A stretch of DNA of 64,000 bases. Origin: Neoscytalidium dimidiatum. Lineage: Eukaryota > Ascomycota > Dothideomycetes > Botryosphaeriales > Botryosphaeriaceae. The stretch covers positions 1 through 64,000 of the forward strand of contig JAVSCG010000032.1 in assembly GCA_037367355.1 (NCBI GenBank), written 5' to 3'. The notes below the pieces were generated by a model that saw only the letters and a list, made by a program, of their open reading frames with translations, was not told the DNA's origin and did not search any database. Both the position numbers and the translations under genes were made by a program. Positions 1-62,876 of this stretch are shown here, one piece after another (position 1 is the first letter of the stretch; every line of letters starts with the position of its first letter).

Positions 1-1700
1 AGCCCCATCGACGACGACGAACCTCCACGAAACCCAACACCAGAGCAGGAGCCGGAGGACGAAGAGGAACCGCAGGACGAGGAACCCATACCAACACTTG
101 AAGAAACCACGGAAGAGGCAGTAAACGAGGAAGAAGATGACACCGCCACTTGGGAACAAATCATCCAAGGAAAATATAACAATGATCCGCTATCCCAAGA
201 ACTGCTTCAACGAATAGGCACCCCGAACATGACGACCCTGACCTAGTCCAAGACCATAGAGGCAACATACTATTCCGCGGAAAATCTACGTACCCACACC
301 TCTGCGCAAACGGCTGACAAAGGAATACCACGAGTCCGCAGTTCACGGACACCCAGGAATGACAAGAACCTTGGAACGGCTTGTAAGACACTTCTACTTT
401 CCCGAATGAGGAAAGTAGTAGAGAAAGTCATCCAGGAATGTGACGAATGCGCAAAAACAAGGTGGCACGACATGCACCATACGGACAACTACAGCTCATC
501 ACAACACCAACCAAACCCTGGGAATCGGTCACAATGGATTTTATCACCGACCTGCCAAATTCAGTAGACCCTGTGACTAAAGCACGACACAACGCCATCC
601 TGGTCATTGTCGACCGCCTGACAAAATGGGCATACTTCATCCCTTGTAACAAAAAAATCGGAGCAGAAGGCTGCGCCTACCTCTTCCTCAGATATGTCTT
701 CGCCCACCACGGGATGCCCAAGGAACTAATCACGGACCGAGACCCACGATTCAGAGCTAAGTTCTGGCAAACCTTGGTCCACAAGTTAGGAACTAAACAC
801 AAGATGTCAACAACGGCACACCCGCAAACCGATGGACAAACGGAACGAACCAACCAAACGCTAGAACAGTACCTAAGATTCTACCTGAATTACAGGCAAA
901 ACAACTGGGTCGAACTCCTACCATTAGCCCAATACGCGTACAACAGCACATCAACGGAAGCCACACAAACCACGCCCTTCTACGCCAACTACGGATTCGA
1001 CCCTACTGCCTTCGGAGAACCCCAGATCTGCGAAGTACTCGCCCAAAAGCTATGCTCAGAGCAGACCAGCTACGTGAACTACACCAGGAACTGGCCCGAG
1101 ACATCAAATTCACCGCATACCGAATGGCCATGTACCATGACAGACGGCGCCAGGCGTCGCCGCCCCTGAAGGAGGGGGATAAAGTCTGGCTCTCAGAAAA
1201 CATCATCAAAACAACACGATCGAACGACAAATTGGACCACAAGAAAATCGGACCCTACCAAATTGAGAAAAACTTTCACCTGTTTCCTTTAAACTCAGAT
1301 TGCCAGAACAAGTGGGTATACACCCAGTTTTCCACATCTCTTTACTTGAACCCGCACACAGCAACGCCGAACCTGACCCAGAACTTGAAATACACCCCGA
1401 TGACGCCGACAAAGAATGGGACGAGAAAATTGGATGGAGACTGGATCGACGGTCAATTTAAGTACCTCATCAAATGGGAAGGAGCGGATTCCGCCGGGAA
1501 CCCGTGGAACCCTCATGGGAACCAATCTCTTACCTTAACTGCGAGGAACTCATCCATGAATACCACCGACGAAACCCTGACCGCCCAAACCCAGAGCATC
1601 CTCCCACGACGCAAACCCCGGAGGCGTCGTCAAGGACACCTGAAACTGGTCCACCGGTGCCTCTCGAGGAACCAGCCCGTCGGAACCCGCCACGTCACCA
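1..1700 (+). pseudogene. pol: Gypsy pol 3' end: integrase and chromodomain, frameshifted
   Basis: The sense strand encodes the end of a Gag-Pol polyprotein. In order one sees an acidic linker after RNase H (1-200), the integrase zinc-binding region with HGHPG and CDEC (about 340-460), and the integrase core. The core has the first Asp in MDFITD, the second in ITDRD and the Glu in QTERTNQ, with 35 residues between the last two (DD35E). A C-terminal [13 protein letters not shown] module and a chromodomain (YLIKWEG, about 1430-1580) follow, as in Ty3/gypsy chromoviruses. The frame breaks several times relative to A2 and the RIPed copies, for example four instead of five C at about 222-226 and an altered start of the second half near 1050. 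Several breaks are in homopolymers. The function would be cDNA insertion targeted by the chromodomain to histone marks. Confidence 0.9.
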
Positions 1701-2178
1701 CCGCCTGAACCAGATAACAAGGACCCTGAGCCGCCCGCGCCTCCTGCGCCTCCTCAGCCTCAATGGCCGCCAACTCCCGCTCAAACAACTCCTGACTGGG
1801 AATCCAGGAAGGAAAGTGTCCGCAACAGGCGGATCACCTTGACCGAGAAGTGGCGGTACGACGAACCAAACGTTGAGCCTCCTCTTGCAACCGCTGAATC
1901 TCGGCCTCATCCCTTTCGATCTCGCGCTGGGTCTGCTCAATCTGAGCCCGCACCCGGTCCCGTTGTTGATCCACACGACGAAACTCAATAGGGGAAGCCA
2001 TGTCAGAAGGAAAGGAACAAAGGTGGCGCTTGGCACACTCGTAACACCTCTTGGAATCCGGCGACACAAGACAACGAAGACGAGGTCTCTCCACACAAAA
2101 GGAACAACGTCTGGGAGCGTCAGTACCGTTACGAAGGATACGGGCGAGAAGCGCGCGTCGACGAGCGGAACTGGACAT
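1550..2178 (-). CDS. Antisense zinc-cluster/coiled-coil protein of element A1
   Basis: A gene runs opposite to the retrotransposon. An uninterrupted reading frame from ATG at 2178 to 1834 gives 114 residues, and homology to the A3 fossil (24850-25485) shows the protein continued to about 1550 before three small deletions. The N-terminus is basic. Residues about 24-55 hold C-x2-C-x7-C-x8-C-x2-C-x5-C, close to the fungal Zn2Cys6 spacing. MASPIEFRR follows, then a heptad-rich, Gln/Glu/Arg-rich coiled coil. The C-terminal ALGLGGQGF... overlaps the end of pol in antisense. It starts 95 bp from the LTR, so its promoter would lie in the 3' UTR or U3. Seen: frame, cysteines, coiled coil. Inferred: zinc binding and dimerisation. 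Function is unknown. The sense strand is also partly open here, so a shadow ORF is the alternative. Confidence 0.65.
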
Positions 2179-2259
2179 GACGGCAGAGAAATAATCTCAA
2201 GGGAACTAAGGAGGGAGCTCAACTACCTTTATACTCGACCTTCGGGCCGAAGGTTGCCT

Positions 2260-7524: not shown

Positions 7525-8015
7525 TATAACGACGGGGCCTCTACTACTAGGCTTCGGAGTTACCTAGTAGGTTTAGGTTTATCGAAGGGTTTACCTTAAA
7601 GACGAGGAAAGGGGAGTAATAACGAAATAAGAAGTCACGTAATATAGGAGTTCGATAGGCCTTATTACCTCTAAGTTAATATAGTATTAAATTAGAACTT
7701 TAAATTAACTACGAGGGTTAAAATACTATCTAGCGAGCGTGTCTATATACTATAGTAAAGCTATAATAATCTAGATCTAGGTATAGTAGATTTATCGGAG
7801 GTAGATATACGGTACTTAGATTTATAGAGATCTAAAGTAGGCCGTACGTAATACGCGGCGCTTAGGTTCGTTTTCTAATTTCTAACTTCCTTAATCGTAT
7901 AAGCGGCTAGTATTATCGTCCCGCCGCGCTTCTTCTTATCGACTTTCTACTTTCTATCCGTACGGGTTTATACCTTTTATAGCTATAACGCCCGTATATT
8001 CTAGAATTCGTAATA
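7525..8015 (-). repeat. 3' LTR of B1 (491 bp)
   Basis: On the plus strand it starts TATAACGACGGGG and ends CGTAATA, the RIPed forms of TGTAACG and CGTAACA. The CTATCCCCC immediately to its right is the polypurine tract on the minus strand. It pairs with the LTR at 21367-21857. Confidence 0.92.
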
Positions 8016-8117
8016 CTATCCCCCTCCTTAGGAATCTTCGGCCCGAAGATTCTTCCTTTCTATCTATATCTCGTTTTCGTTCCCCTTATCTTTCTTTCCC
8101 GTAAGTCCCTTCTTACT

Positions 8118-8877
8118 ATACCTCCTAAGCGTAAGCGCTCCGCCTAGCGTACTAAATATTTAGTTTTAGGCGACGAGATTAATCGTAACGGTTTCCCGAT
8201 ATCTTTTTCTTATTCTTTCTATCTTTTAGCTAACGCTAGTAAGGCCGACTCTAATTCTTTCTTCGTAGTATATAAGATAGATAGGGTATATTCTCGTTAC
8301 GGTAAGTACGCTCGCCGGGGTAAGTCCGCTTATAACGCTAGTAGTTTAGATAATTCTAACTATAAGTCCTTTTTATCTCTTTTTTTCTCGTTATTCCTAA
8401 TTTTTACTCGTAGTTCTCCGAGTTCGCTAAGCCTTACTAAAGGTCGAGCGGGACGAATAGAGGGCTCGTTAAGAGTTACGTACCTCTATAGCTCGCTTAG
8501 ACCGCGTTAAAAAGTAGAGGAAGTTACTTTGTTATCGGGCTTATTTAATAATTTCCTAAAAGGTTTAAACGGTCGAGGAGTTAGAGAAGCTAGATCGCCT
8601 AGAGTCGGTTCGTAAGACTAGAAATTCTACTAACTCTAAAAATACCGAGGAGTCGCGAGTAGTAAAGCGTATACGTAGCGACGCCTTAGCTAACGCTACG
8701 GGTCCGTCCCGTTTCGTCGGGTCGCCTAGCGTTAGTTCTACTACTACGCCGCCCGAGAGCTTTAAGCCGGTTAATTAGGCGCGGTAGTCTCCGTTTCCTA
8801 ATTTTAATTTTAGATTCTTTATATTTAACGAGTCGGCGGTATTAGTCGATCCGGGTTTCGATAATAGAACTTATTAA
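8118..8877 (+). pseudogene. Antisense cysteine-cluster gene of B1, RIPed fossil
   Basis: Opposite to B1 and just inside its 3' LTR, a plus-strand frame starts at 8118, where ATA stands for a mutated ATG, with PPKRKRSA following. Only RIP-type stops interrupt it for about 250 codons. At 8271, 8298, 8307 and 8331 Tyr codons (TAT/TAC, the RIP product of TGT/TGC) give the spacing C-x8-C-x2-C-x7-C. That is the same spacing as the second half of the cluster in the A' antisense gene. The first half of the six-Cys motif is not evident. The C-terminal part is Ser/Pro/Phe-rich and reaches the pol 3' end. The end coordinate is approximate. Function is unknown, and a DNA-binding or zinc-binding role is an inference from the Cys spacing. 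Confidence 0.55.
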
Positions 8878-11800
8878 TAAGTTATCTATATCCGTCGTAA
8901 TTTTCTAGCGGTTCCTAGATATCGTTCTATTCTCCTTTCTATTTAAGAAGGTACCGGAATTAACCGTCGATATAGCCGCTATCGAGGACTTTCTCTACTT
9001 TCTAATCTCGGTTTTCGTCGGCGTCTAGATTTTCTAGAAGTATCTCTTTCGTATAGATTACGGTTTTAGCGTTCTTTAGTGCTAGTTCTAGAAGGGATAC
9101 GTAAAAAACGGGGTATATCCGTATCGTTTCTAGTAATTTAAGGCGGAAATTAACTTTCCCGATTTTTTCTTCGATCCTAAATAGTTCTATTTTCTTAAAA
9201 TCTAGCTTATTATTTAGCCGCCTTATTCTAATATTTTTTCTAAGGAGGTAGACTTTATCCCCCTTCTTTAGCTACGGTACCTTCTAGTATCGCTTATCGT
9301 AGTACTTACCTATTCGTAGGACTACGAATTCTAAGTCTAGGTATAGTTATTTATAGAGTGTCTTTAACTAGTCGGCTTTAAGGATTCCTTTTTAGGCTAG
9401 TAATTCGCTCGGTATTAGTTCTTTATAGGCTAATAGCTTATAACCGTAATTAGCGTAGAATAGTAATTCTTATATTACCGACGCTTTAGAGCTATTATAC
9501 GCGAACTAGGCTAAGAGTAGTAGTTCTACCTAGTTGTTCTATACGTAGTTAAGGTAATAGCGTAAATATTATTCTAGCGTCTAGTTAGTCCGTTCTATTT
9601 ATCCATCTATCTACGGATATACCGTAGTTAAGAGCTTATACTTTACTCTAAGTTACTTTATAAGAGTCTACTAGAATCGTAATATAAATAGTTTATCTCT
9701 ATCTAATACGAGCTCTTTAGGTAATCTGTAGTTACCAAGAATAGTTCTTAAGAACGTATATACGAGGTCTTCCGCGTTTACCTTCTTTAGGTATAGTAGA
9801 TAGTACGCGTATTTCGTTATTCTATCTACGATAACTAGTATCGAATTATACTTAACTTTAGTAAGTAGTTCTTCTAACTCTAGTAGGTCCGTAATAAAAT
9901 CTAGCGAGATAGATTACTAAGGGCGCTTAGATGCCGGTAGTAGCTAGAGTAGTCCGTAGAATATATATCTCGCTGCCTTACTTCGGATATAAAGGTCGTA
10001 TTACGTAACTATCCGCTAGACTATCCTTCTAAGCTCTAGAAAGTAGTAATTTCTCGTAATCCTCTCGATCGTCTTCTCGGTTTCTTAATAACTATATACT
10101 AGAGCCTCGTATATATTCTTTACGAGTTCCTCCCGTAGTTTTACCGGGACGTAGATTAATCCTAAAAATAGGATTATTCCTTCTACGTCTCTAGTTACTC
10201 GGGGGTCGTTTTCTAAATTTCTAATTTCTTATACCTTAGCGTCTTCCGCGTAGGCTTCTCGAATTTTATAATTCTATTCGTAGCTTTCTAGGTATATCGC
10301 TAAGGCTACTAGCCTAGCCGGGGTAAGCGACCTATCGAATTTCTTCTTTCTTCTATATATAGCGGAGATTTAGCGTTTATCGGATATAAAAGACCCGTCT
10401 TTCTACTCTACTAGTATTACCGGTTATAGTTCTAGCTTTTCTTCTATATAGTCGGCTCTTCTACTTAGCGCGTCTACGCGCGCGTTTTCTAATTCCTTCC
10501 GATAGATAATCTTTATATCGTAGAATACTAGCTCTTTAGCCTATCTAACCTACCTTCGGTTTAGTTCCTTTATAGTAGTAAAGTATAAAAGATTCTTATA
10601 GTCGTAGTAGACTATAACCTAGTCTTAATTAAGCTAGGTAATATCTACATTCTAAAGGTTAAATGCGATAGCTAGAAGTTCTTTATTATAGACGTCGTAG
10701 TTTCTTTCTAGTTCTATTATTTTTCGAAAGTAATACGCGATAGAATATAGTCTATCTTACTCGTCTAGCTAGCTTAAGACTACTCCGATAGCGTAGTCCG
10801 ATATATCGGTTTCTACCGTTATAGGTAGGTTAGGGTAGAATAGTTCTAATATCGGTACTTCTATAAATATTCGTTTTAATAAGTCGAAAGTATTCTACTA
10901 TCTTTCTCTCTATATAAATCTATACTCTTTTCTAGTTAAATCTATAAGCGGAGCTAATACCTTAGTATAGTTTAGGATAAACTTTTAGTAAAAGTTAGTA
11001 AAGCTAAGAAAGGATTACACTTCTTTAATAGTTTTCGGCGTAGGCTATTCTCTTATCGCGTCTAGTTTTTTCTCGTCTATACTAATATATCCCGGGATAA
11101 TAATAAATCCGAGGTACTTAGTCTTCTATATATACTATTCGCTCTTATCGGAGGCTATCTAGAGGTTCCGTTTCTCTAGTGCCTATAAGACTTTATATAC
11201 GTACTTAGTATATTCTTCGAGCGTTTCCGAGTATATTAGGATATCGTCTAGGTAGGCTAGTACGAATACGTCTAAATACGGTCGTAGTATATCGTTAACT
11301 AGGCTCTAGAACGTAGCCGGTATATTAGTAAGCCTAAACGGTATTACCGTATACTCGTAGTATCTAAATCTTATTCGGAAAGCCGTTTTCTATTCTTCGC
11401 CTTCTTTTATCCGAACGAGGTAATAACCTTCTCTAAGGTCTAGCTTAGTAAAGTATTTAGCTTTTCTTAATTTATCCTATAATTTATCTATACGTAGTAA
11501 CGGGTATCGGTTTTTTACCGTAATATCGTTTAGTTATCTATAGTCGATATAGAGACGGAGCTTACTATTTTTCTTAGGTATAAATAAGATAGAGTATCCG
11601 GCCGGTAACGTAGAGGGTCGGATATATCCTCTTTCTAGGTTCGTTTTAAGGTACTCCCTTAGTGCCTTAGCCTCGTTCTTAGAAAGAGAGTAGATAGGCT
11701 TAAACGCGGGCTACGTTCCTAGTAATAGAGGTATTTTATAGTCCTATAGCTTATACTTAGGTAATAATTCTTTACCTCTTTCTTAAAATAATTCGGCGTA

Positions 11801-13447
11801 TTTCTAGAATTCCGGGGGTACTTTCTCTAGTCCCGTAGTATTTTCCGTTACGCGTATCTAGTTAAGGGTTCTTCCTAGCGGGCTATACCTCTCGTAGATT
11901 CTCTTCGGATAGTCTCCTCCGAGTAGTCGAGGAGTATCGACTTCCGAGGTCCGTTTTCTAATTTATACTATAATTCGGCGTTCTTATTCTAAGCTAGGCA
12001 TAATATAGATAATATAAGCTTACTCTCCTCGTTTTTTTATACGTAGTAGAGTATTAAGAGATATTCTCTTAGCCTCTACTAGGTACTCTCTAGACGACTC
12101 TAGCTCGTAGCTCTTTTAGCTCTAGCTCTCTAGCTCTAGCTCTTAGCCCTAGCTCTCTAGCTCTAGCTCTTAGCTCTAGCTCTCTAGCTCTAGCTCTTAG
12201 CTCTAGCCCTCTAGCTCTAGCTCTTAGCTCTAGCCCTCTAGCTCTAGCTCTCTTACTTCGAGGTTCGCGAGGTGTCGCTTATAGTTATCTCCGAGGAATA
12301 TTATAGTTTCTATACTCTAGCTAATATATAGGTTATAGGTTTTTAACTAGGGTATCCCGAGAACGATATCGTAGTTCGGGCTTATTATTACGTCTAGGTT
12401 AATTCGCTCTTTATAATCTCCGAGGGTTATTCGTATCTAACTAGTCTTAATCCTTATCTAACTCTTACCGTATTCTATCGATAACCCGTCGAACGTACTA
12501 AGTTTATAGGGCCGTTTCTTAGGTTAGAATAGCAAGTCGTTCTTCCTAAGAAATTTAGGATCTATAAAATTTCCTTACGTACTACTATCGATTATTACTA
12601 GCGTAGTAGTTCCTTCGATTATAACTAGTACTTCTAGTAGTATTTTAAGTTCTTTTTATTTATAAGATATTCCGTTTAATATTAAGTATATAATCTAATT
12701 AAGGGACCTTCGTACTAGCCCCTCCTAAGGTCCCTAGCTAGGGGAGCCGTCTAGTTTTTTAATATTTCGTAGCGTATATACTCGTCCTATTCTTCGATTA
12801 GAATCGGGGTATCCTTCTACCGAGTCTATTGCCCTTACTTAATCTTACGCCTCTAGTAGATCTATCTATTACGTACCTAGTACTAGAAGATTAGTTTACC
12901 GTATTTTTTATCGGGTACCTATTATAGGGTGCCGTAGCTTCGCGTAGCTATATCGTAATAGTAGAGGGTATAGGCTATATCGTATAGAGATATAAGGTCT
13001 CGTTACTACTATATCCCCTAGGCTTCTTCTTTAAGCTAGAATACTACCTTATCGGCTGTTTTTAATAGCGATTCCTTCTAGGGGTACTATACGTCGTCCT
13101 TAAAAAACTATAAGCTAAGTTTTTCGTTCTTTATCTAGTACTATTACGATAGTAGATCTATTCTTAATCCGGGGGTCTAGTAGATCGTAGGGGTATAACC
13201 GGATTCGATATTTCTTATATCTCCGTACCGGTTTAAGTATTCCGTAATTCGATCGAGCGTAGCTTAATTCTACTATTACTCGGTATTTTCTACCTTATTA
13301 GATTCCGGTATACTATCGTAAAGCTCTCTAGTTTCGCTATTTACGAGGTCTTTATCGGCCGGGAAGTGTTTTTCGATATCTTTCTCCGTAGCCTCTTCTA
13401 ATTTTCGAAGTATTATATTAAGTCGTCGTAGCTTACTAGGATACTAC
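8850..13447 (-). pseudogene. pol: B1 pol relic: protease, RT, RNase H, integrase, chromodomain
   Basis: Minus-strand gypsy Pol riddled with RIP stops. From right to left: protease (about 12560-12640, homologous to IDSKAxGN of B2), a Glu-Leu repeat tract (12111-12252), RT with a YLDD motif near 11234-11245, RNase H (about 10400-10900), integrase core (about 9500-10100), the integrase C-terminal region (about 9050-9250) and the chromodomain relic toward 8850. The order PR-RT-RH-IN is that of Ty3/gypsy. Its 5' coding neighbour, gag, lies beyond A2 at 20124-21366. B2 (55598-61912) is the best reference copy. Confidence 0.85.
12111..12252 (-). repeat. AGCTCT/AGAGCT tandem repeat in B1 pol
   Basis: About 140 bp of near-perfect AGCTCT/TAGCTC units. 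On the coding strand they read as alternating Glu-Leu, Glu-Ser and similar codons between protease and RT. The same tract occurs at 58031-58163 in B2. It contains no CpA or TpG, so RIP could not degrade it. Confidence 0.85.
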
Positions 13448-13831
13448 TGTTACGCCGGGACTCTTTCTGGGGGAGTCGAGGCGCGTCGTCAGGCAGCTTG
13501 GGCTTTCTAGGGGCCAATACAGTGGTAGGCAGGGGAGGTTCGTACAATAGTAGGGTAGGAATCAATTGACAAGTTGACCACGGGGTTCTATCTACTGTTG
13601 AACGAGTGTGCTCTATATACTGTAGGAGATGGTGGGTGTGACCGCTGGCCGTGACCGCGGTGGTTCTGGTGGTCAGGTTGAGTGGTCAGGCCTTGGCATT
13701 GTGACCGCGGTGTTGTTGCTGAGTCATCGGGGTGGCCACGGGCGTCTTGTATCTTGGCTGTGTTGTGTTGGTGGGTCCGATTTCCTCCAGCTCAGCACTT
13801 CCTCTCCTTCCCTTCTTGCTGCGCCGTAACA
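13448..13831 (-). repeat. 3' LTR of A2 (A' type, 384 bp)
   Basis: TGTTACGCC...CGTAACA on the plus strand. The R-U5 half (left) is nearly identical to the A-type LTR. The U3 half is unrelated and contains repeated GTGACCGC and TGGTCAG modules plus a TATA box on the minus strand. The 66-residue plus-strand frame inside it (13629-13829) is repeated in the other LTR and is not taken as a gene. Confidence 0.96.
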
Positions 13832-13846
13832 CTATCCCCCTTCTAG
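13832..13846 (-). other. Polypurine tract of A2
   Basis: CTATCCCCCTTCTAG on the plus strand reads as a purine-rich tract ending in GGGGGATAG on the minus strand, directly at the 3' LTR. Confidence 0.85.
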
Positions 13847-13917
13847 GCAGCTTTCGGCCCGAAAGCTTTTATAAGGTGGTCTTCCTGCTGTTTCCTTTGT
13901 TTCCTTAGTCGCGCACG

Positions 13918-14699
13918 ATGTCGTCAGCGCGGACCCTTCGCCGTCGCAATCAGGCTCAACGCATTCAATCTTGGGGCGCCTTGCTGACATTCCCTGCAGA
14001 CGCTGTGTGAAGCGTGGGGAGTCGAGTTGTATTCTTGCAGATTTTTATTCGGCGTGTGCTTGTTGTGCCTCGGTGGGTCGTACTTCCTGCGACGCAATGG
14101 CGAGTCCTCTGGATGCTGAATGTAAGTTATTCCTGTAACGTCTTGACGGGTTGTTGACTGGTCTCCTAGTTCGTCGTCTGGATAGGGCTCGTGAGGACTT
14201 GCTTCGCCGCCTTGAAGCGGCTGAAGGTCAGGTAGCTGCTGAAGAGGCTGGGGCTGACGCTGCTGCGGAGGCTGCTGATCGGGCTGCCGAGGCTGCGGCT
14301 GCGGCGGCGCGTGAGGCGCAGGCGGCCGCTCGTCGTTTTCGGGACGCCCAGCGGAAGGAGCGTCAATTGCGTCGGTTATTGCGCCATGTGGAGCGTCGGA
14401 ATGCTTCTTTGTTTGCCCGGGAAATGGCTGCCTTGGAAGAGGAGGAACGATTGGAGCGGGAGGCTGCGGCTCGAGAGGGGCGGGAGCCTCAGGATGTTCC
14501 GCGGGTTCGGATGATGAGACTGGCTTGTCACGTTGGTCTGCCGGGTCTCCGGGCGGTGGGCGCGCACTCGAGCACGGTGGCGTGCCTGAGGTCTCTTGAT
14601 CGTTATCGAGTGGCCTTGACCCCGCCTGCCGGGTTCGCGTCGTGGGAGGATGCTCTGGGTTTGGGCGGTCAGGGTTTCGTCGGTGGTATTCCTGGATGA
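13918..14699 (+). CDS. Antisense, intron-containing zinc-cluster/coiled-coil gene of A2
   Basis: A plus-strand gene opposite to A2. Exon 1 (13918-14121) starts at ATG 13918 with a basic N-terminus. It has a 1-nt deletion near 13972 relative to the fossil copy at 53423-52638, then C-x2-C-x7-C-x8-C-x2-C-x7-C (codons from 13995 to 14090). A 48-nt intron (14122-14169) follows. Exon 2 (14170-14699) begins FRRLDRARED and holds a long Ala/Glu/Arg-rich coiled coil (to about 14480) and a C-terminus ALGLGGQGFVGGI shared with A1. The predicted spliced product is about 244 residues once the deletion is allowed for. The motif resembles fungal Zn2Cys6 clusters followed by a dimerising coiled coil. The sense strand is also open here (Pro/Gln-rich, 13924-14814), so expression must be tested. 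Function is unknown. Confidence 0.7.
14122..14169 (+). other. Predicted 48-nt spliceosomal intron, antisense to A2
   Basis: Starts GTAAGT, contains TTGAC at two branch-point-like places and ends CTCCTAG. It holds an in-frame TAA. Splicing joins GAAT to TTCG and yields EFRR, matching MASPIEFRR in the intronless A1 gene. The same 48 nt, RIPed, are at 53171-53218 in the chimera. Confidence 0.75.
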
Positions 14700-17600
14700 G
14701 TTCCTCGCAGTTAAGGTAGAGATTGGTTCCCATGAGGGTTCCACGGGTTCCCGGCGGGATCCACTCCTTCCCATTTGATGAGGTACTTGAATTGACCGTC
14801 GATCCAGTCTCCATCCAGGATTTTCTCTACGTTCCATTCTTTGTCTGCGTCATCGGGGTGTATTTCAAGTTCTGGGTCAGGTTCGGCGTTGCTGTGTGCG
14901 GGTTCAAGTAACGAGATGTGGAAAACTGGGTGTATTCCCACTTGTTCTGGCAATTTGAGTTTAAAGGAAACAGGTGAAAGTTCTTTCTCAATTTGGTAGG
15001 GTCCGATTTTCTTGTGGTCCAATTTGTCGTTCGATCGTGTTGTTTTGATGTTTTTCTGAGGCCAGACTTTATCCCCCTCCTTTAGGGGCGGCGACGCCTG
15101 GCGCCGTCTGTCGTAGTACATGGCCATTCGGTATGCGGTGAATTTGATGTCTCGGGCCAGTTCCTGGTGTAGCTCGCGTAACTGGTCTGCTCTGAGCATA
15201 GCTTTTTGGGCGAGTACTTCGCAGATCTGGGGTTCTCCGAAGGCGGTGAGGTCGAATCCGTAGTTGGCGTAGAAAGGCGTGGTTTGTGTGGCTTCCGTTG
15301 ATGTGCTGTTGTACGCGTATTGGGCTAGTGGCAGGAGTTCGACCCAGTTGTTTTGCCTGTAATTCAGGTAGAATCTTAGGTACTGTTCTAGCGTTTGGTT
15401 GGTTCGTTCCGTTTGTCCATCGGTTTGCGGGTGTGCCGTTGTTGACATCTTGTGTTTAGTTCCTAACTTGTGGACCAAGGTTTGCCAGAACTTAGCTCTG
15501 AATCGTGGGTCTCGGTCCGTGATTAGTTCCTTGGGCATCCCGTGGTGGGCGAAGACATATCTGAGGAAGAGGTAGGCGCAGCCTTCTGCTCCGATTTTTT
15601 TGTTGCAAGGGATGAAGTTTGCCCATTTTGTCAAACGGTCGACAATGACCAGGATGGCGTTGTGTCGCGCTTTAGTCACAGGGTCTACTGAATTTGGCAG
15701 GTCGGTGATAAAATCCATTGTGACCGATTCCCAGGGTTTGGTTGGTGTTGTGATGAGCTGTAGTTGTCCGTATGGTGCATGTCGTGCCACCTTGTTTTTG
15801 CGCATTCGTCACATTCCTGGATGACTTTCTCTACTACTTTCCTCATTCGGGAAAGTAGAAGTGTCTTAAGCCGTTCCAAGGTTCTTGTCATTCCTGGGTG
15901 TCCGTGAACTGCGGACTCGTGGTATTCCTTTGTCAGCCGTTTGCGCAGAGGTGTGGGTACGTAGATTTTTCCGCGGAATAGTATGTTGCCTCTATGGTCT
16001 TGGACTAGGTCGGGGTCGTCATGTTCGGGGGTGCCTATTCGTTGAAGCAGTTCTTGGGATAGCGGATCATTGTTATATTTTCCTTGGATGATTTGTTCCC
16101 AAGTGGCGGTGTCATCTTCTTCCTCGTTTACTGCCTCTTCCGTGGTTTCTTCAAGTGTTGGTATGGGTTCCTCGTCCTGCGGTTCCTCTTCGTCCTCCGG
16201 CTCCTGCTCTGGTGTTGGGTTTCGTGGAGGTTCGTCGTCGTCGATGGGGCTCCCTAGCCTTATGATGGGTGCCAGTATTCGTTCTTCCCAGGGTGCGTCG
16301 GATTCTTCAATGATTCGGGGGCGGTTGGGGCCTAACGTGCCGTCGTCATTTTGTCGTAGTACTGCTGGTGATAGTTCTGGCTTTCCTTCCACGTGGTCGG
16401 CTCTGCGGCTAAGTGCGTCGGCCTTGCCGTTTTCACTTCCCTGCGGTAGTGGATCTTGAAGTAGAAGGGGCGAGTTGTTCTGCCCATCGTACTTGTCTTC
16501 TGTTTAACACCTTGGTGGTTGTGAAGTATCCCAGGTTCTTGTGATCCGAGTATACCGTGATTTCGTAGTTAGCTCCTCAAGGTAGTGTCGCCATTCCTTG
16601 AACGCTGTGACGATCGCAAGCAGTTCTTTGTCGTGTATCTCGTAATTGAGCTCGGCGGGTGACATTTTGCGAGAGTAATACGCGATAGGGTGTAATCTTC
16701 CCTCGTCGTCTGGCTGGCTGAGGGTAGCGCCAATGGCATAGTCGGATGCGTCAGTTTCGAGGTAGAGTGGCTTGTCAGGATCGAACATGAGGAGTACCGG
16801 CGCTTCTACGAAGGCCCTTTTGAGTTGATCAAACGCCTCTTGTTGGGGTGCTTCCCAGGTGAAAGGGTATTTTTCGGGTGAGTCGGATTAGGGGTTCGGC
16901 TACATGCGAGTATCGTTTGATGAATCGTCGGTAGAAGTTGGCAAACCCTAAAAGGCTTGTACCTTTGACGTTCCTTGGTTCTGGCCACTTCAGGATGTCT
17001 TCCACCTTTTTGGGTCCATGACTATTTTCCTGGTTCGATGATAAAGCCTAGGAATTCTACCCTTTGGGCATGGAAGGTACATTTTTCTGGTTTGACGGAG
17101 AGGTTGTATTCGAGTAGTTTCTGGAGGACTTTGGATACATGTTCCTTGTGTTCTTCAAGGGTTTCTGAGTAGATCAGGATGTCGTCGAGGTAGGCTGTGC
17201 AGAATCGGTCCAGATATTCTCGTAGGACGTGGTTGACAAGGGCTTGGAATGTGGCAGGGGCGTTGGTAAGTCCGAAGGCATTACCAAGTACTCGTACAAA
17301 CCGTATCGAGTTCTGAATGCGGTTTTCCATTCATGTCCTTCCTTGATTCGGATAAGGTGGTACCCATCCCGCAGGTCTAACTTGGTGAAGAATCGTGCCC
17401 CGAGGCGATCCCTTAGTTCATCGATGCGGGGTAGAGGGTAGCGGTCTTTGATGGTAATGTCGTTCAGGGATCGGTAATCCACACAGAGCGTAACTTGCCT
17501 CCGGGCTTTGGTACGAAGAGGACGGGGAATCCTGCTGAGGATTGAGAGGGTCGGATGTATCCCTTCTTCAGTAGTAAGTCCAAGTGTTCCCTCATTGCTT

Positions 17601-18483
17601 GTAACTCCTTTTCCGACATTGGATATAGGGGTCCAAATCGGGGTTCAGTGCCTGGTTTCAAGTTGATCTCGTGGTCCCATGGTCTGTGTTCCGGTAGTGC
17701 GTCTTCGATCTTTTCTCTGAAAATTTCCTTGAACCGGTGGTATTCCTTAGGAACGCCATCAAGGTACTGTTCGTGTATCCTGGTGGGGTCATCTCCTCCC
17801 ACGGGTGTCGGGTAGTCTGGTTTTTCTCGTCTGGTGGCACTAATCTGTCGGGTTCTTTCTTTGTTTGTAGTGGTGGGGCGATACCACATCATTCCAATTG
17901 CTTGCCCCTTCTTTCGGGTCCTTTCCAGCGCAGCTTTCGAAATTAGGCTTACGTGGGTAATCGGTTCGGCTATGGTGCGTGGTTTCCATTCTGGTTCTTG
18001 GTTTCGTTCTCTGGACTTGAGGGTAATTCCTCCATTGTCCCAATCGTATTGTATTTTCCATTTCTTCTGCCAAGGGATGCCGAGAATGACATCATACTTG
18101 GGGATCTTGGTAACGTCTAGACAGATACGTTCCCTGTGGTTTTTGTATTCGAGGGTCAGTTTCGGGGTTTCGATGATTACCTTTCCATCTCCAAAGGAGC
18201 TGGGGGATCCATCAACAGTTCTCAGCTGATATGGTTGGTCCTTTTCTCTGGGTTTTAGGTTGGCTTTTTCTGCAAATCGGTTTGAGACGTAGTTCCCTTG
18301 TGATGCGGAGTCGATGAGGGTGAGCGCTCGGCGTCCATTGATTTTTGTCACGACAACCCAGTGGTTCCCGTATTCTGCGTCTCCTTTGCTTTCTGGTGGG
18401 TGTCCTGTGGTTTTCCGGTCGATGCTGCTATGGTCCTGTGGGGCAGGGGCTCGCCTGCTGTAGCCCCAGTTCAGTAGGCGTTT
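14640..18483 (-). pseudogene. pol: A2 pol: protease, RT, RNase H, integrase, chromodomain; frameshifted
   Basis: Minus-strand gypsy Pol. Protease with LIDSASQGN (about 18300-18330); RT with KLDLRDGYH and YLDD (17181-17192); RNase H starting [14 protein letters not shown] (about 16740); integrase zinc-binding HGHPG/CDEC (about 15800-15930); core with MDFITD, ITDRD and QTERTNQ, giving DD35E spacing; GDKVW module; chromodomain FKYLIKWEG (about 14700-14830). The order fits a chromovirus of the Tf1/MAGGY kind. Frame breaks near 17480, 17300, 17020, 16500, 15800 and 14750 split it into several pieces, some at homopolymers. The protein would copy and integrate the element. The chromodomain would steer it to heterochromatin. 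Pol lies in the same frame as gag after one TAG. Confidence 0.92.
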
Positions 18484-18493
18484 CTAGTTTTTT
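18484..18493 (-). promoter_or_regulatory. Candidate gag-pol recoding site (AAAAAAC then TAG)
   Basis: On the minus strand AAAAAAC is followed immediately by TAG, and protease continues in the same frame. Readthrough could therefore make Gag-Pol. The alternative is a Gln codon CAG hit by a single RIP-type CpA to TpA change. RIPed copies also read TAG, but that is uninformative. Confidence 0.35.
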
Positions 18494-19684
18494 GGGTGGT
18501 ACCCGCTGATGTTCTTAGCTTCCTGGTGAATGGGGCAGGCTTCGATGCTACAAGTGGACCAGTGGATGGTGTCATGGTTGGGGGTCTCCGGTCGTCCTTC
18601 AGTAGCCGAGGTGGTTTTCTTGTCGTTGGTTCGCTGGTTGCTGGTTCGTTTGTCTGGGCAGTTTCTGCTGATATGTCCGTGCTTTCCACAGTGGAAGCAA
18701 AGACCCTTTCACGCCGTCGCTGTTCTTCCTCCGGCGCCAGCCGGGTTTCGTCGTTGGTTGGCATCTAAGTCCATGGGGTCCCCGAGGTAGGTTGTTTCGA
18801 GGTTGCGCGGTGTTGGCCGAGTATCGGGTTTGGCCTGTCTCTTGTCTGAAATTGAACAGTTGTTGGTCGACTCGGATGGCCGTGTCGATGGTCTCGCTAA
18901 GGTCCTTGGGTAATCCGGTGCGGGCGAATTCGGCCTTCACATTGTGCTTTAGGCCCTTGTAGAAGATGTATTTGAGGGATTGGTCGTTCCAATTGAGGTA
19001 GGAGGCGAGCATGCGGAATTCCGTGACATATTCCGAGACTGATCGGGTTTGTCGGAGGTCCTGAATTCGAAGGGCGGCCTCCTGCTCCTCGTTCTTGCTA
19101 CCAAAGGCTTGTCTGATTGCGTCGGCGAAGCGATTGTAGTTGGCGAACAGGCTACTGGTTTCCGTACGTGGGATGGCCGAGCGGAAATCCTTTCGATAGG
19201 GTTCGAACCACCGTGCTGCGTTACCTCGGAGGTAGGTTCCTGCAAAGCGGACCCTTTCCTCATCGTCCTTGAATGATGCTTTGTAGAATTCGAAGTAATT
19301 CTCTAGTTGGGCCAGGAAGTCGTTGAGCTTACGCCGATCCCCATCGTAGGTGTCGGGGGTCTTGATCTTTAGTTTGGTGTTGTGGGGGGTCGATTCTGAT
19401 GTCGCGGGGGTGGCTGGGGTGGAGGGCCGCATAGTACGGTTGACAGTAAAGGCTTGTCCTCGAATGAAGTACTCCAGAAGGACTTGGCCGCAGTCCTCAC
19501 TGGCGTTCTCTGGTACTCTGGGTCCGTTGATTGCTCGACTCAAGGAGGCTATGCCCGAGGAATATGCTTCCGAAATGAGCAGCCTCATGTTAAGAGCTGG
19601 GTTTCCAGGGATCAAGGGACGGATTGACTGAAGCTGTTCCTCCTCCGTCGGAAGGTTGTTCCTGATTTCGGTCCAGGATGTCAT
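18484..19684 (-). pseudogene. gag: A2 gag with CCHC zinc knuckle, frameshifted
   Basis: Starts at ATG 19684 (MTSWTEIRNNLP), about 55 bp inside the 5' LTR. The capsid-like part includes KLNDFLAQLENYFEFYK and RWFEPYRKDF, typical of Ty3/gypsy Gag. A CCHC knuckle (CFHCGKHGHISRNC) lies at about 18650-18700 but in another frame than the N-terminus. Comparison with the fossil copies indicates at least three small indels between about 18700 and 18800. The frame ends at TAG 18486-18484, directly after AAAAAAC, and the next codon continues in the same frame into the protease. Gag would form the virus-like particle. Confidence 0.9.
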
Positions 19685-19729
19685 GGTTAGTAGTTTTCAG
19701 GGTGGGGTTACCTCCGGTGCCTAAGAAAG

Positions 19730-19737
19730 GTGGTCAA
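19730..19737 (-). other. Candidate self-priming primer-binding site of A2
   Basis: Two bases from the 5' LTR, the minus strand reads TTGACCAC. The R region of the same LTR carries its complement GTGGTCAA (19873-19866 on the minus strand), about 38 nt after the TATA box (19905-19913). That fits a Tf1-type mechanism in which the RNA 5' end primes its own cDNA. I recognised no tRNA match. Confidence 0.5.
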
Positions 19738-19739
19738 AG

Positions 19740-20123
19740 TGTTACGCCGGGACTCTTTCTGGGGGAGTCGAGGCGCGTCGTCAGGCAGCTTGGGCTTTCT
19801 AGGGGCCAATACAGTGGTAGGCAGGGGAGGTTCGTACAATAGTAGGGTAGGAATCAATTGACAAGTTGACCACGGGGGTCCTATCTACTGTGAACGAGTG
19901 TGCTCTATATACTGTAGGAGATGGTGGGTGTGACCGCTGGCCGTGACCGCGGTGGTTCTGGTGGTCAGGTTGAGTGGTCAGGCCTTGGCATTGTGACCGC
20001 GGTGTTGTTGCTGAGTCATCGGGGTGGCCACGGGCGTCTTGTATCTTGGCTGTGTTGTGTTGGTGGGTCCGATTTCCTCCAGCTCAGCACTTCCTCTCCT
20101 TCCCTTCTTGCTGCGCCGTAACA
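19740..20123 (-). repeat. 5' LTR of A2 (384 bp)
   Basis: Partner of 13448-13831, differing at a handful of positions. On the minus strand it carries the promoter (TATA at 19905-19913) that would drive gag-pol. It is followed by ACTAC, the target-site duplication. Confidence 0.96.
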
Positions 20124-21366
20124 ACTACTCTATAGCGTCCTTATCGCTCTAGTAGATAGTATAATTATCGTTATAGTACGCTATCTAACTTTAGGCTATA
20201 TAATCTACTATTTTTATAGCGGCGATTTCTTGTAGCGCCTTCTATCCCTAGATAGTTACCGCTACTTCTCGTAACTCTTTCTTTAAGTATTTATATCCTA
20301 CGCTCTATTTATCTCTATATTAGATATATAGTCCTTTCTTATAGAGCTCTTTTTCTTTCTTACTCTATTCTCTTTTCTTACCCTTATTATCGCCGTTCTT
20401 CTTATTCCTACCTCTATCTCGCTAGACTATATTATCTATTTCTATAGCGTCGCCTCCTTCTTAAGTATAGCGAGGCCTAGCTTATCTTAAGGTATTAGCG
20501 TTATACCCTTTCTTATCGAACTACCTCTCTATACGGCGCTTATCTATAAGTAGGGCTAGCTTAATTATATCGTTAAGAGTTTCTAGTTTCTTATAGTACG
20601 TTATAGCTTCTTTAATCTCGTCCCTTAGCCCTTAGTAGTAGAAGGTACGTAGCGTAAGATTAGAGTGTCTATCTACGAGGTATACTACGTCTTAGAATTT
20701 AGCTATATAGTCTTATACCGTTTCTTTCTATTTTAGACTTATAAGGGTTCTAGTAGCTAGACGGTTCTCGTCGACACCGCTAAAGGCTATCTTAAGCTAC
20801 TTCGTAAAGTTTTAGTAGTCGCTAAAGATTATCGAGGTTACTTCGAACTATAAGTATACGGGTTTCTTCTAGTACTCTCGCTTAAAAGGTCGGAACTATT
20901 ATTCCGCCGATCCTCTAAGGTAGGTACTAGCGTATAGAACTTATTCAGCGGGGCTAGCGAAGTTACCGTATATAAAGTATATATAGTTATTTAGCTACGT
21001 AATAAAGGCTTAGGTCTTTTTTCGGTCTCCGTAGTATAGGTCTAGTTTCGGGACCTTAACCTTAGTAGCCGGTAGTAGAGCTAGTACCTAGGTAAGCTAG
21101 ATACGTAGAATTACGTTTTTATTTCGAAGTTCTAGGATTATATTAAGTAGCTCCTCGTTAGTCGGTATATTAGGGTATTAGTTTCCTACTACCGTACTAT
21201 ATTACGGCGGTTACTACGAGTCTAGAGTATTCTATACATGCGTCTTTACTACTTTTAGATACGTCCTATAATAATAGCTAATACTATTAGTACTTCTTAG
21301 AGTAAGGAAATACTTCCTATTTTTCTAATTAAATTACTTTCTTTCCTATAAGGATAGTAGTTAAAG
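20124..21366 (-). pseudogene. gag: B1 gag relic
   Basis: RIPed minus-strand Gag region between A2 and the B1 5' LTR, homologous by eye to B2 55600-56900. Lys/Glu/Arg-rich segments and a basic stretch near 20340-20420 are still visible. Stops are TAA/TAG of RIP type. A2 has separated it from the rest of gag-pol (to 13447). Confidence 0.75.
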
Positions 21367-24756: not shown

Positions 24757-24849
24757 CTATCCCCCCTCTAGATAACCTTCGGCCCGAAGATCGAGTATAA
24801 AGGTAGTTAAGCTCTCTACTTAGTTTTCTTAAGGTTATTTCTTATCGTT

Positions 24850-25485
24850 ATATCTAGTTCCGCTCGTCGATACGCGCTTCTTACCCGTATCCTTCGTAAC
24901 GGTACTAACGCTCTTAGACGTTATTCTTTTTACGTAGAGAGACCTTATCTTCGTTATCTTATATCGCCGGATTCTAAGAGGTATTACGAGTATACTAAGT
25001 GAGGCTACTTTTATTCCTTTCCTTCTAATATAGCTTCCCCTATTAAGTTTCGTCGTATAGATTAATAACGGAACCGGGTACGGGCTTAGATTAAGTAGAC
25101 CTAGCGCGAGATCGAAAGGGATAAGGCTAAGATTTAGCGGTTATAAGAGGAGGCTTAACGTTTAGTTCGTCGTACCGCTACTTCTCGGTCTAAGATAATC
25201 CGCCTATTACGAATACTTTCCTTTCTAGATTCCCGGAGTTAGAAGTTATTTAAGCGGGAGTTAGCGGCTATTACGGCTAAGGAGGCGTAAGAGGCGCGGG
25301 CGGCTTAGAGGTCCTTATTATCTAGTTTAGGCGGTAGTAACGTAGCGGATTCCGACGGGCTAGTTCCTTAAGAGGCACCGGTAGACTAGTTTTAGATATC
25401 CTTAACGCCTCCTCTAAGGTTTACGTCGTAGGATAATACTCTAGGTTTAGGCGGTTAGAGTTTTATCGGTAGTATTTATAGATAA
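24850..25485 (+). pseudogene. Antisense zinc-cluster/coiled-coil gene of A3, RIPed fossil
   Basis: The plus-strand frame opposite to A3 runs 212 codons from 24850 (ATA for ATG) to TAA at 25485. It has no frameshift, and all other stops can be explained by RIP. It is colinear with the A1 antisense gene. Cys positions appear as Tyr (RRYSFY...), then ASPIKFRR, a coiled coil and a Gly-rich C-terminus. It shows that the A-type protein was about 211 residues and intronless when this copy inserted. It overlaps the 3' end of pol. Confidence 0.65.
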
Positions 25486-50500: not shown

Positions 50501-52700
50501 TAATTAACTTAAGAGGGCCTTCGTAGAAGCGCCGGTACTCCTTATATTCGATTCTAATAAGCTACTCTACCTTAAAACTAACGTATCTAACTATACTATT
50601 AGCGCTACCCTTAGCTAGCTAGACGACGAGGAAAGATTATATTCTATTACGTATTACTCTCGTAAAATATCACCCGCCGAGCTTAATTACGAGATATACG
50701 ATAAAGAACTATTTACGATCGTTATAGCGTTTAAAGAATAGCGACACTATCTTAAGGGGGCTAACTACGAAATTACGATATATTTAGATTATAAGAACCT
50801 AGGATACTTTATAACTACTAAGGTACTAAATAGAAGATAAGTACGATAGGTAGAATAACTAGCTCCCTTCTACTTTAAGATCTACTGGAAGGAAGAAAAG
50901 CGGTAAGGCCGGCGGCGACGGCGTTAATCGACTATATAGAAGGAAAACCGGAACTATTACTAGCGGTACTACGACGAAACGATAATAGTACGTTAGGCTC
51001 TAACCGCCCCTAAATTATCGAGGGATACGACCTACTCTAGAAGGAACGGATACTAGTACCTATTATAAGACTAGAAAACCCTAGTAATAACGACGAGCCT
51101 CTAAGAGGCTTAATATCCGAATAGGAACCTAAGGATAAAGAAGAACTATAGAATAAGGAACCTATACTAATACCTAAAGAAACTACGGAGGAAGTAGTAA
51201 ACGAAGAAGAAGATAATACCGCTACTTAGGAGTAAATTATCTAAGGAAAATATAATAACGATCCGCTATTCTAAGAACTACTTTAACGAATAGGCATTCT
51301 AGAGTATAACGACCCCGACCTAGTTTAAGATTATAGAGGCAATATACTATTCCGCGGAAAAATCTATATACCTATACCTCTACGTAAACGGCTAATAAAA
51401 AAATACTATAAATCCGTAGTCTACGGATATTCGGAAATAATAAGAACCTTAGAACGGCTTATAAGACACTTCTACTTTCCCCGAATAAGGAAAATAGTAG
51501 AGAAAGTCATCTAGGAATATAATAAATACGTAAAGAATAAGGTAGCGCGATACGTACTATACGGATAACTATAGCTTATTATAATACTAACTAAACCCTA
51601 GAAATTAGTTATAATAGACTTTATTACCGATCTACTAGTCTTAGTAGACCCCGTAACTAAAGTATAATATAACGCTATCCTAGTTATTATCGACCGTCTA
51701 ATAAAATAGGCATACTTTATCCCTTATAATAAGAAAATCGGAGCGGAGGGCTACGCCTACTTCTTTCTTAGATATATCTTCGCCTACTACGGGATGCCTA
51801 AAGAACTAATTACGGACCGAGACCTACGATTTAAAGCTAAGTTCTAGTAAACCTTAGTCTATAAGTTAGAAACTAAATATAAGATATTAATAACGGCATA
51901 CCCGTAAACTAATAGATAAACGGAACGAACTAACTAGACGCTAGAATAGTACCTAAGATTCTACCTAAATTATAGGTAAAATAACTAGGTCGAACTCCTA
52001 CTATTAGCCTAATACGCATATAATAGTATATTAATAGAAGCTATATAAACTACGCCCTTCTACGCTAACTACGGATTCGACTCTACCGCCTTCGGAGAAC
52101 TCTAGATCTACGAAGTACTCGCCTAAAAAGCTATACTTAGGGTAGACTAGCTACGCGAACTATACTAGAAACTAGCCTAAGATATTAAATTTACCGTATA
52201 CCGAATAGCTATATACTATAATAGACGGCGCTAGGCGTCGCCGCCCCTAAAGGAGGGGGATAAAGTCTAGCTCCTTAGAAAAAATATCTAAATAATACGA
52301 CTAAACGATAAATTAGACTATAAGAAAATCAGACCCTACTAAATTAAGAAAAAACTTTTACCTATTTTCTTTAAACTTAAATTACCGGAATAAGTAGGAA
52401 TATATCTAGTTTTCTATATCTCGTTACTTAAACCCGCGTATAGTAACGCCGAACCTAACCTAGAACTTAAAATATATCCCGATAACGTAGATAAAGAATA
52501 GAACGTAGAGAAAATCCTAGATAGAGACTAGATCGACGGTTAATTTAAGTACCTTATTAAATAGAAAGGAGTAGATCCCGTCGGGAACCCGTAGAAACCC
52601 TTATAGGAACTAATTTCTTACCTTAACTACGAGGAACTTATCTAGGAATACTACCGACGAAATCCTAACCGCCTAAACCTAGAGTATCCTTCTACGACGT
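47570..52700 (+). pseudogene. Chimera gag-pol relic
   Basis: Plus-strand fossil covering all domains. Gag with RIPed CCHC (about 47610-48840), the AAAAAACTAG junction (about 48827), protease (about 48990-49260), RT with YLDD at 50133-50144, RNase H (about 50530-50800), integrase (about 51400-52350) and chromodomain (about 52480-52690). Indels are few, and RIP stops many. It is the most complete plus-strand A pol in the window. Confidence 0.88.
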
Positions 52701-53423
52701 AAACCTAGTAGGCGGGGTTAAGGCCACCTAATAACGATCGAGAGACTCTTTAGATACGCTACTATACTCGAGTACGCGCCTACTATCTAGAGACCCGGTA
52801 GACTAACGCGATAAGCTAGTCTTATTATTCGAACCCGCGAGAATATTCTAAGGCTTCCGCCCCTCTCGAGCCGTAGCCTCCCGCTCTAATCGTTTCTTCT
52901 CTTCTAAGGTAGCTATTTTCTAAGTAAATAAAGAAGTATTCCGACGCTCTATATAGCGTAATAACCGACGTAATTAACGCTCCTTCCGCTAGGCGTCCCG
53001 AAAACGACGAGCGGCCGCTTACGCCTTACGCGCCGCCGTAGCCGTAGCCTCGGTAGCCCGATTAGTAGCCTCCGTAGTAGCGTTAGCCCTAGCCTCTTTA
53101 GTAGCTACCTAACCTTTAGCCGCTTTAAGGCGGCGAAGTAAGTTCTTACGAGCTCTATCTAGACGACGAACTAGAAGACTAGTTAATAACCCGTTAAGAC
53201 GTTATAGAAATAACTTATATTTAGTATCTAGAGGACTCGCTATTACGTCGTAGAAAGTACGACCTACCGAGGCATAATAAGCATACGCCGAATAAAAATT
53301 AGTAAGAATATAACTCGACTCTCTACGCTTTATATAGCGTCTATAGGGAATATTAGTAAGGCGCCCCTAAGATTAAATACGTTAAGCCTAATTACGACGG
53401 TGAAGGGTCCGCGCTAACGATAT
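52638..53423 (-). pseudogene. Antisense A' gene with 48-nt intron, RIPed fossil
   Basis: Minus strand, from 53423 (ATA for ATG) to TAA at 52638-52640. The intron position is 53171-53218 (ATAAGTT...CTTCTAG, the RIPed GTAAGT...CTAG). Without it the frame is 246 codons with only RIP stops. Tyr stands for each clustered Cys. It has the extra base missing from A2 near 13972, which confirms that the N-terminus and the cluster are in one frame. Confidence 0.68.
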
Positions 53424-53509
53424 CGTACGCGACTAAGGAAATAAAGGAAATAGTAGGAAGACTACCTTATAAAAGCTTTCGGGCCGAAAGCTATCTAGGA
53501 GGGGGATAG

Positions 53510-62828: not shown

Positions 62829-62876
62829 CTACCCCCCCTTTTAGAGATCTTCGGCCCGAAGATTTATTCGTTTACT
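62829..62876 (-). mobile_element. Short 3' internal remnant of a B-like element
   Basis: Pyrimidine tract plus GATCTTCGGCCCGAAGAT, a stem-forming sequence shared with B1 (8036-8055) and 35880. Homology ends near 62876. Confidence 0.65.

Follow-up and report, generated by a model that had tools for sequence, protein, structure and literature searches.

Two related kinds of fungal retrotransposon carry an opposite-strand gene that looks like a real, intron-bearing gene

The window analysed here, a 64,000-nucleotide stretch of Neoscytalidium dimidiatum DNA, contains a minus-strand Ty3/gypsy element, A2 (13445-20123), bounded by an LTR on either side (3′ LTR, 13445..13831; 5′ LTR, 19737..20123; both minus strand). 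Its pol ends (14711..15805, minus strand) with integrase, an SH3-like domain (SH3_Tf2-1) and a chromodomain; integrase and chromodomain at this position identify the host element as a Ty3/gypsy chromovirus. In Pfam comparisons SH3_Tf2-1 scored above its cut-off, and rve (E 7.5e-7) and Chromo (E 3.6e-5) fell just below theirs in this broken copy, which has frame breaks inside the chromodomain. Between the pol end and the 3′ LTR, an antisense gene runs on the plus strand. Exon 1 (13918..14121) encodes a Cys cluster, and exon 2 (14170..14699), which starts FRRLDRARED, encodes a coiled coil, its last ~29 codons lying opposite the chromodomain end of pol. The exons, both on the plus strand, are separated by a 48-nt phase 1 intron (14122..14169, plus strand; GTAAGT...CTCCTAG). 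A sense frame made up of the chromodomain end and a Pro-rich tail (13924..14826, minus strand) faces the gene. The sequence-only reading had taken 13918-14699 as one open frame, which could not be upheld given the intron and breaks in both exons. The exon 1 break, between the ATG and the cluster, is present in eight of the nine A copies read, L081 alone reading through intact; a second break, in exon 2, is absent from L079 and L080 (L-numbers denote stretches taken from the genome around the window, 43.76 Mb in 40 contigs).

The intron contains a stop in the antisense frame. Of 11 un-RIPed A copies, nine agree in all 48 of its letters; the remaining two, and nine RIPed A copies, gave no match to the exact intron pattern used. 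A second form of the gene, A′, found in A1 and other copies, has no counterpart of the intron: the same protein continues across the site without the 48 bases. The junction reads ..GAAT/gtaagt..ctag/TTCGTCGT (also TTCGTCGTCTGGAT) in A, and GAGTTTCGTCGT (also GAGTTTCGTCGTGTGGAT) in A′. In element B1, by our own reading, a 52-nt intron (8362..8413, plus strand; acceptor CGTAG) occurs at the A position and in the A phase, with a donor that is now ATAAGT, as RIP of GTAAGT would give. Because position and phase agree in A and B1, and the intron is exactly missing in A′, it is probably ancestral and was precisely lost in A′. The simplest account of such a loss would be that a spliced antisense RNA was reverse-transcribed into DNA.

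Antisense frames lie opposite the element, between the pol end and the 3′ LTR, at all five places where the sequence-only reading had seen them. Besides A2, these are A1 (A′ cassette; 1553..2178, minus strand), intronless and with several small deletions; A3 (A′ cassette; 24850..25485, plus strand), RIPed; a chimera (A cassette; 52638..53423, minus strand), also RIPed, with a frame intact except for RIP-type stops; and B1 (exon 1, 8118..8361; exon 2, 8414..8778; both plus strand), which has Tyr at Cys positions of the others. The pattern C-x8-C-x2-C-x7-C, with Tyr for Cys, was recovered in B1 as earlier described, but the spacing from second to third position is 16, not 7, by our own reading. 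Another B subfamily, less RIPed than B1 (L111, C1:3583380-3584420; GC 0.48), matches B1 at 79-87% in its start and pol-side parts, the middle with the Cys region being unalignable at the DNA level; we read it as MPPKRKRN...Y-x8-Y-x2-Y-x7-C, then exon 2 FFRLKRAIDKAELEEQ... L109, considered as an un-RIPed B copy, turned out to be more heavily RIPed. The antisense gene of a further B-like copy (L110, C4:97150-98000) is common with B1 at the 3′ end only, and its cysteines are seemingly arranged otherwise.

Un-RIPed and heavily RIPed copies occur side by side in the one genome, the former including ~40 near-identical A′ copies (L039-L078). In L040, 211 codons follow one another without a stop. An intact ATG-to-stop frame was found in L040 and L045 only among 41 young A′ sequences. 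Small deletions, many of them recurring at identical bases, were present in every one of the 40 young A′ sequences compared with L040 (one or more in each), four had insertions inside the gene, and 28 showed zero substitutions (L098 was dropped, L097 and A3 were counted apart as RIPed, and the 107 substitutions of L041 are an artefact of running off the gene after base 411). Of the 107 substitutions by which A3 differs from L040, 104 are C>T/G>A, and there is no internal indel. Since the deletions come almost without substitutions and recur at the same bases, most are probably assembly errors in near-identical repeats. Recurrent small deletions of this kind would mislead gene prediction. With 28 of 40 sequences substitution-free and all 40 bearing deletions, dN/dS among young copies is unusable.

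The predicted A′ protein (L040) has the pattern C-x2-C-x7-C-x8-C-x2-C-x6-C, followed by FRRVDQQRDRVRAQ..., and the cluster of the A protein (L081) ends ..C-x2-C-x7-C, its other Cys spacings being the same. A last Cys at x5 or x7 had been proposed: x7 stands for A, and the x5 of A1 proved to be a deletion. An AlphaFold2 model (10 sequences) predicted a single long helix at residues 65-165, with block mean pLDDT of 90-98 over 71-160, in a model that was weak overall (mean pLDDT 65, pTM 0.34; Cys region <60). The search of 5.8 billion protein sequences returned five proteins at E <=10; an alignment query returned 11 at E <=1, and the A exon 2 query two. Four of the 11 relatives span the Cys region and keep all six cysteines, namely P0002-P0004 (52-59% identity) and P0007 (43%), a hypothetical protein from Thermoascus aurantiacus ATCC 26904 (Eurotiales); the remaining seven are fragments from which the Cys region is missing. 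A exon 2 aligned with P0002 at z 14.3. B exon 2 aligned at z 5.7-6.6 with P0002 and P0005 and at z 2.0-3.0 with A′ and A, values to which coiled-coil composition may contribute, and B exon 1 gave no significant alignment (z -0.3 to -1.1; to A and A′, z -0.3 and -0.5). These comparisons argue for a conserved antisense protein with a six-Cys cluster and a helix of ~100 residues, and bear out the earlier proposal of an accessory protein with Cys cluster and coiled coil.

The Zn2Cys6 label that had been attached to the protein was not retained. Fungal factors of this class have the motif C-x2-C-x6-C-x(5-12)-C-x2-C-x(6-8)-C, and x7 (A, A′) or x15-16 (B types) was found in place of x6; the other Cys spacings are compatible with the motif, and a coiled coil after the cluster, a Zn2Cys6 trait, is present as the predicted helix. 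At E <=10 the PF00172 profile was listed neither for A exon 1 or an A1 piece nor for L040, whole or cut to its Cys piece, and it was absent among the 25 families shown, out of 32, for six homologues (E <=1). The sole Pfam lead for the A Cys exon, DUF3716 (PF12511), gave 13.1 bits (E 0.091), and 15.5 bits for an A copy in a genome scan, below the 22-bit cut-off in each case; it was unlisted for L040 at E <=10, and membership found no support here either. What is held in common with DUF3716 and Zn2Cys6 factors is a Cys cluster, with the profile below cut-off or unlisted. Among Pfam matches with scores shown, nothing exceeded its cut-off for the antisense protein, the best being zf-C4H2 (E 0.0026) over the helix. 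Solved structures yielded no relative (best E 0.047, helical part only), nor did viral contigs, searched at low sensitivity with one degenerate pattern. A host gene of 427 aa (L107:1258-2541, at C4:927650) is the better of two DUF3716 matches in the genome (20.3 bits, cut-off 22) and has, by our own reading, a DUF3716-like Cys cluster and a C-terminal coiled coil.

In both A and A′ the pol frame extends beyond the chromodomain as a Pro-rich tail that faces most of the antisense gene, remaining open past the chromodomain motif for 248-249 aa in A and 138-139 aa in A′. The C-terminus common to the antisense proteins, FASWEDALGLGGQGFVGG, sits opposite the conserved chromodomain end of pol and is thus no independent evidence; the last ~30 codons facing the chromodomain were excluded from alignments of A with A′. 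Local alignment in the antisense frame gave z 6.3 for exon 1 and z 9.2 for exon 2, scores reached by 0/300 shuffles. Another frame of the antisense strand also gave z 6.3 for exon 2, with one stop in each copy. The stop-free sense frame gave z 1.8 (27/500 shuffles), and the best-scoring sense frame z 3.7-3.9, but with 7 and 4 stops. When synonymous codons were permuted so as to keep the antisense protein, the sense frame stayed open in 212/1000 cases (A′) and 782/1000 (A); when the sense tail was kept, the antisense frame stayed open in 11/1000 and 5/1000.

Mismatches between A and A′ at antisense codon positions 1/2/3 numbered 53/52/70 in exon 2 (115 codons; dN/dS 0.43, Fisher p 0.009) and 34/35/40 in exon 1 (64 codons; dN/dS 0.53), with Fisher p 0.006 for the exons pooled; the dN/dS values are rough, synonymous sites being near saturation (pS 0.66-0.68). 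Where the sequence-only reading had envisaged a pattern preserving the sense frame alone, as a possible refutation, the substitutions favour the antisense frame. Since the antisense protein makes an open sense frame unsurprising, and not the reverse, these comparisons indicate that selection acts on the antisense frame. The sense frame at 13924-14826 is best read as a by-product of antisense codons, its openness being as expected by chance. By such sequence criteria, the antisense gene of A2 is a real gene.

In A, A′ and B alike, the stretch from the purine tract to the antisense ATG contains a short palindrome. In A2 it reads AGCTTTCGGCCCGAAAGCT (13849..13867, plus strand), just inside the purine tract, and a TATA-like box (TTTATAAGG in A; 13870..13874, plus strand), identified by sequence reading, has its first base 48 nt ahead of the ATG. 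The A1 hairpin, ACCTTCGGCCCGAAGGT (2238..2254, minus strand), is followed by TATA-like TATAAAGG 55 nt before the ATG. B1 has GAATCTTCGGCCCGAAGATTC (8032..8052, plus strand), and the TATA-rich sequence found in B types at the TATA-like place is one that RIP alone might produce. The core, TTCGGCCCGAA, occurs at 24778..24788 (plus strand) for A3 and 53478..53488 (minus strand) for the chimera. Its arms vary: AGCT-TTCGGCCCGAA-AGCT in A, ACC-TTCGGCCCGAA-GGT in A′ and GAATC-TTCGGCCCGAA-GATTC in B1. Over seven aligned sites, six of them distinct and two (L110, L112) originally found via the hairpin pattern, 92.6% of stem cells were paired, a value reached by 7/500 shuffles, and likewise the covariation score by 7/500; pairs changed on both sides numbered 4 of 9, as reached by 63/500. 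Sliding the stem partners by 1 to 3 columns lowered pairing to 22-59%.

The core stands ahead of 39/41 young A′-type, 8/11 young A-type, 3/9 RIPed A-type and 2/3 RIPed A′-type genes. Across the genome, CTATCCCCC-N4-20-TTCGGCCCGAA was counted 65 times against 0 for the reversed control, and CTTCGGCCCGAAG 82 times against 3 for its control. The window holds six cores, five of which precede antisense genes; behind the sixth (62850-62860), beside a purine tract and LTR end, no antisense gene was recognised. The gene at that site was perhaps interrupted by another insertion. Inverted half-sites of the kind CGG-N-CCG are bound by Zn2Cys6 dimers, and a CGG-N-CCG palindrome precedes the antisense gene. 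The palindrome may be a DNA operator or an RNA hairpin, its arms covarying like a paired stem. No Rfam match at gathering level was found within 7300-20200.

Gene structure, conservation, the hairpin ahead of the ATG (accompanied in A and A′ by a TATA-like box) and the cassette exchange described below can all be read from the DNA. We give slightly less than an even chance to the overall reading, that a Ty3/gypsy chromodomain element has here a genuine antisense accessory gene with an intron and its own promoter, which is spliced and encodes a homodimeric nuclear nucleic-acid-binding regulator that would act on its own 3′ region. It is likely that a promoter located between purine tract and ATG drives transcription and that the antisense transcript is spliced. 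It is a guess that the product would be a homodimeric nuclear nucleic-acid-binding protein, that it would act on the 3′ region of its own element (palindrome and/or U3), and that the outcome would be to set sense versus antisense transcription. A dimeric nucleic-acid-binding regulator of its own element is our best guess, and its role may lie in regulating the element, in silencing or in copy number. Against this explanation stand the broken state of most young copies, the second antisense-strand frame at z 6.3, the want of a Pfam match above cut-off (among those with scores shown) or a relative among solved structures, the weak structural model, the 63/500 shuffles for pairs changed on both sides, the unaligned exon 1 of B and the gene-less hairpin at 62850.

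The hairpin also bears on a rather unlikely alternative, in which the protein is an accessory factor of the replication cycle and not a transcription regulator, serving nuclear import/export or RNA packaging or dimerisation and binding the hairpin as RNA. The covarying stem, a 3-base loop that can fold and the adjoining purine tract would suit such a factor, and the hairpin, so placed, could serve RNA or plus-strand priming; its loop region also holds GGCC, which could pair between two RNAs. C. elegans Cer1 employs an accessory protein in the export of genomic RNA, according to PMC10309623. However, RNA folding of wider stretches was unremarkable (z -1.3 to 0.1, four sequences), and no RNA-binding domain was recognised in Pfam matches for L040 and homologues.

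That the antisense RNA is what matters, pairing with sense RNA and feeding small-RNA silencing or blocking sense transcription, is a course open to any antisense transcript over pol, and passages of the review PMC7264820 raise it for antisense ORFs. Such a role needs neither cross-species protein conservation, nor dN/dS of 0.43-0.53, nor the frame asymmetry, and we consider it quite unlikely as the explanation. It is very unlikely that both strands are constrained, the sense Pro-rich tail being coding and under selection as well: the tail is open in A and A′, but that openness is the chance outcome of antisense codons seen in the permutations, the tails align only weakly, and the mismatch excess falls on sense position 2. 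Extremely improbable, finally, is an antisense frame open only via the sense pol tail or GC-rich composition, with most young copies broken because the gene is unneeded; it draws on the sense frame open across most of the gene, the shared C-terminus explained by pol and the majority of young copies being frame-broken, and is strongly disfavoured by the intron and the asymmetric codon permutation, on which a chance shadow frame was rejected, by homologues with all Cys outside the pol overlap, and by deletions nearly free of substitutions, as assembly errors would be. The earlier argument against a chance frame is borne out by the A/A′ antisense alignment, the codon-position bias and the permutation asymmetry.

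That argument had also assumed families with different pol, which holds for A/A′ versus B and fails for A versus A′, where gag is 97-100% and pol 94-99% identical DNA. The pol comparison set A′ (L040) against A (L080, L085). In the antisense gene, the 5′ leader and the gene-proximal half of the LTR (by position, U3) identity was only 34-76%, and in the outer LTR end (~100 bases, R/U5 side) it was again about 100%. The gag-side kilobase of A2 had 40 copies in the 97-100% range (40 scored of 104 candidates, a further 75% piece being left out); 33 of them could be assigned to a cassette by where they lie (A in 7 cases, A′ in 26), and the other 7 to none listed. With gag and pol near-identical and the antisense gene, leader and U3 half divergent, A and A′ are, on these alignments, a single gag-pol body with two very different 3′ cassettes. 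The chimera and A1, whose pol is 98% identical to that of A2, are further mosaics in the window.

Judged from the best 40 of 212 LTR candidates, an A-type LTR lies directly beside 11/11 A cassettes and 0/44 A′ cassettes. At the 5′ end, in the same set of LTRs, the pairing of cassette and LTR holds in 29/33 (Fisher p 0.0005), an A-type 5′ LTR being present in 6/7 A elements and 3/26 A′ elements. The four exceptions, three A′ with an A-type 5′ LTR and one A without (C38:5043, C11:7030, C4:143198, C4:1877341), are mosaics/recombinants or misassemblies, and they speak against a strict gene-U3 unit. During reverse transcription, a single template switch close to the pol end would carry the antisense gene along with hairpin, purine tract and U3, so that co-exchange by itself is no proof of action on U3. 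It is nonetheless what a regulator-target pair would need, and the antisense gene with the neighbouring promoter half may form an exchangeable control module. The repressor-operator region of lambda-type phages offers an analogy. The antisense gene, hairpin/promoter and U3 would then be an immunity-like cassette, whose protein recognises its own palindrome/U3 and holds down further copies of its type, allowing A and A′ to multiply side by side on a shared gag-pol body; this is unlikely, its odds being lowered by the 4/33 exceptions.

The brtn gene of Boty-like elements was reportedly treated by Zhao et al. in 2011 (Virology 417:248). In Botrytis cinerea, brtn is an extra antisense gene between pol and the 3′ LTR, as passages of PMC7264820 have it; its host element carries gag, RT, IN and CHROMO domains (passages of PMC4227169), a transcript from Monilinia gave matches to Pol and to BRTN alike (PMC5987419), and brtn/Boty is also treated in PMC8365987. 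By description, brtn and the present gene are alike in place and strand. Plant antisense aORFs, in Grande (gene23), RIRE2, Retand and PvRetro13, likewise lie between pol and the 3′ LTR, and for Grande gene23 a separate promoter and a nuclear product are described (PMC7264820, PMC11963269). Here too the likeness is one of description, and the hosts are others; the available text speaks of neither an intron nor a Cys cluster ('intron' and 'zinc' 0 times in that of PMC11963269, 'intron' 0 times in that of PMC7264820). HBZ of HTLV-1, an antisense product with a dimerising bZIP that suppresses the sense promoter (passages of PMC3185765 and PMC6950816), is an analogy of working only, without membership: it has a bZIP instead of a Cys cluster and starts in the 3′ LTR. 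Titles, abstract starts and passages of the open-licence literature, with subscription papers mostly outside, gave no report of a Cys-cluster/coiled-coil antisense gene with intron, this hairpin or cassette exchange in fungal gypsy elements. The kind of gene is already known (brtn and Grande gene23, with HBZ as analogue); new here are the hairpin with covarying arms and the two cassettes on one gag-pol body.

In plants and Botrytis, LTR retrotransposons have been described with antisense genes that have no known function. The intron, the Cys cluster with its coiled coil and the conserved hairpin make this gene recognisable and testable, and the exact absence of the intron in A′ is a possible fossil of a reverse-transcribed spliced antisense RNA. 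That the gene and its neighbouring U3 are exchanged jointly on a single gag-pol body suggests that a cellular retroelement recognises itself or controls its copy number.
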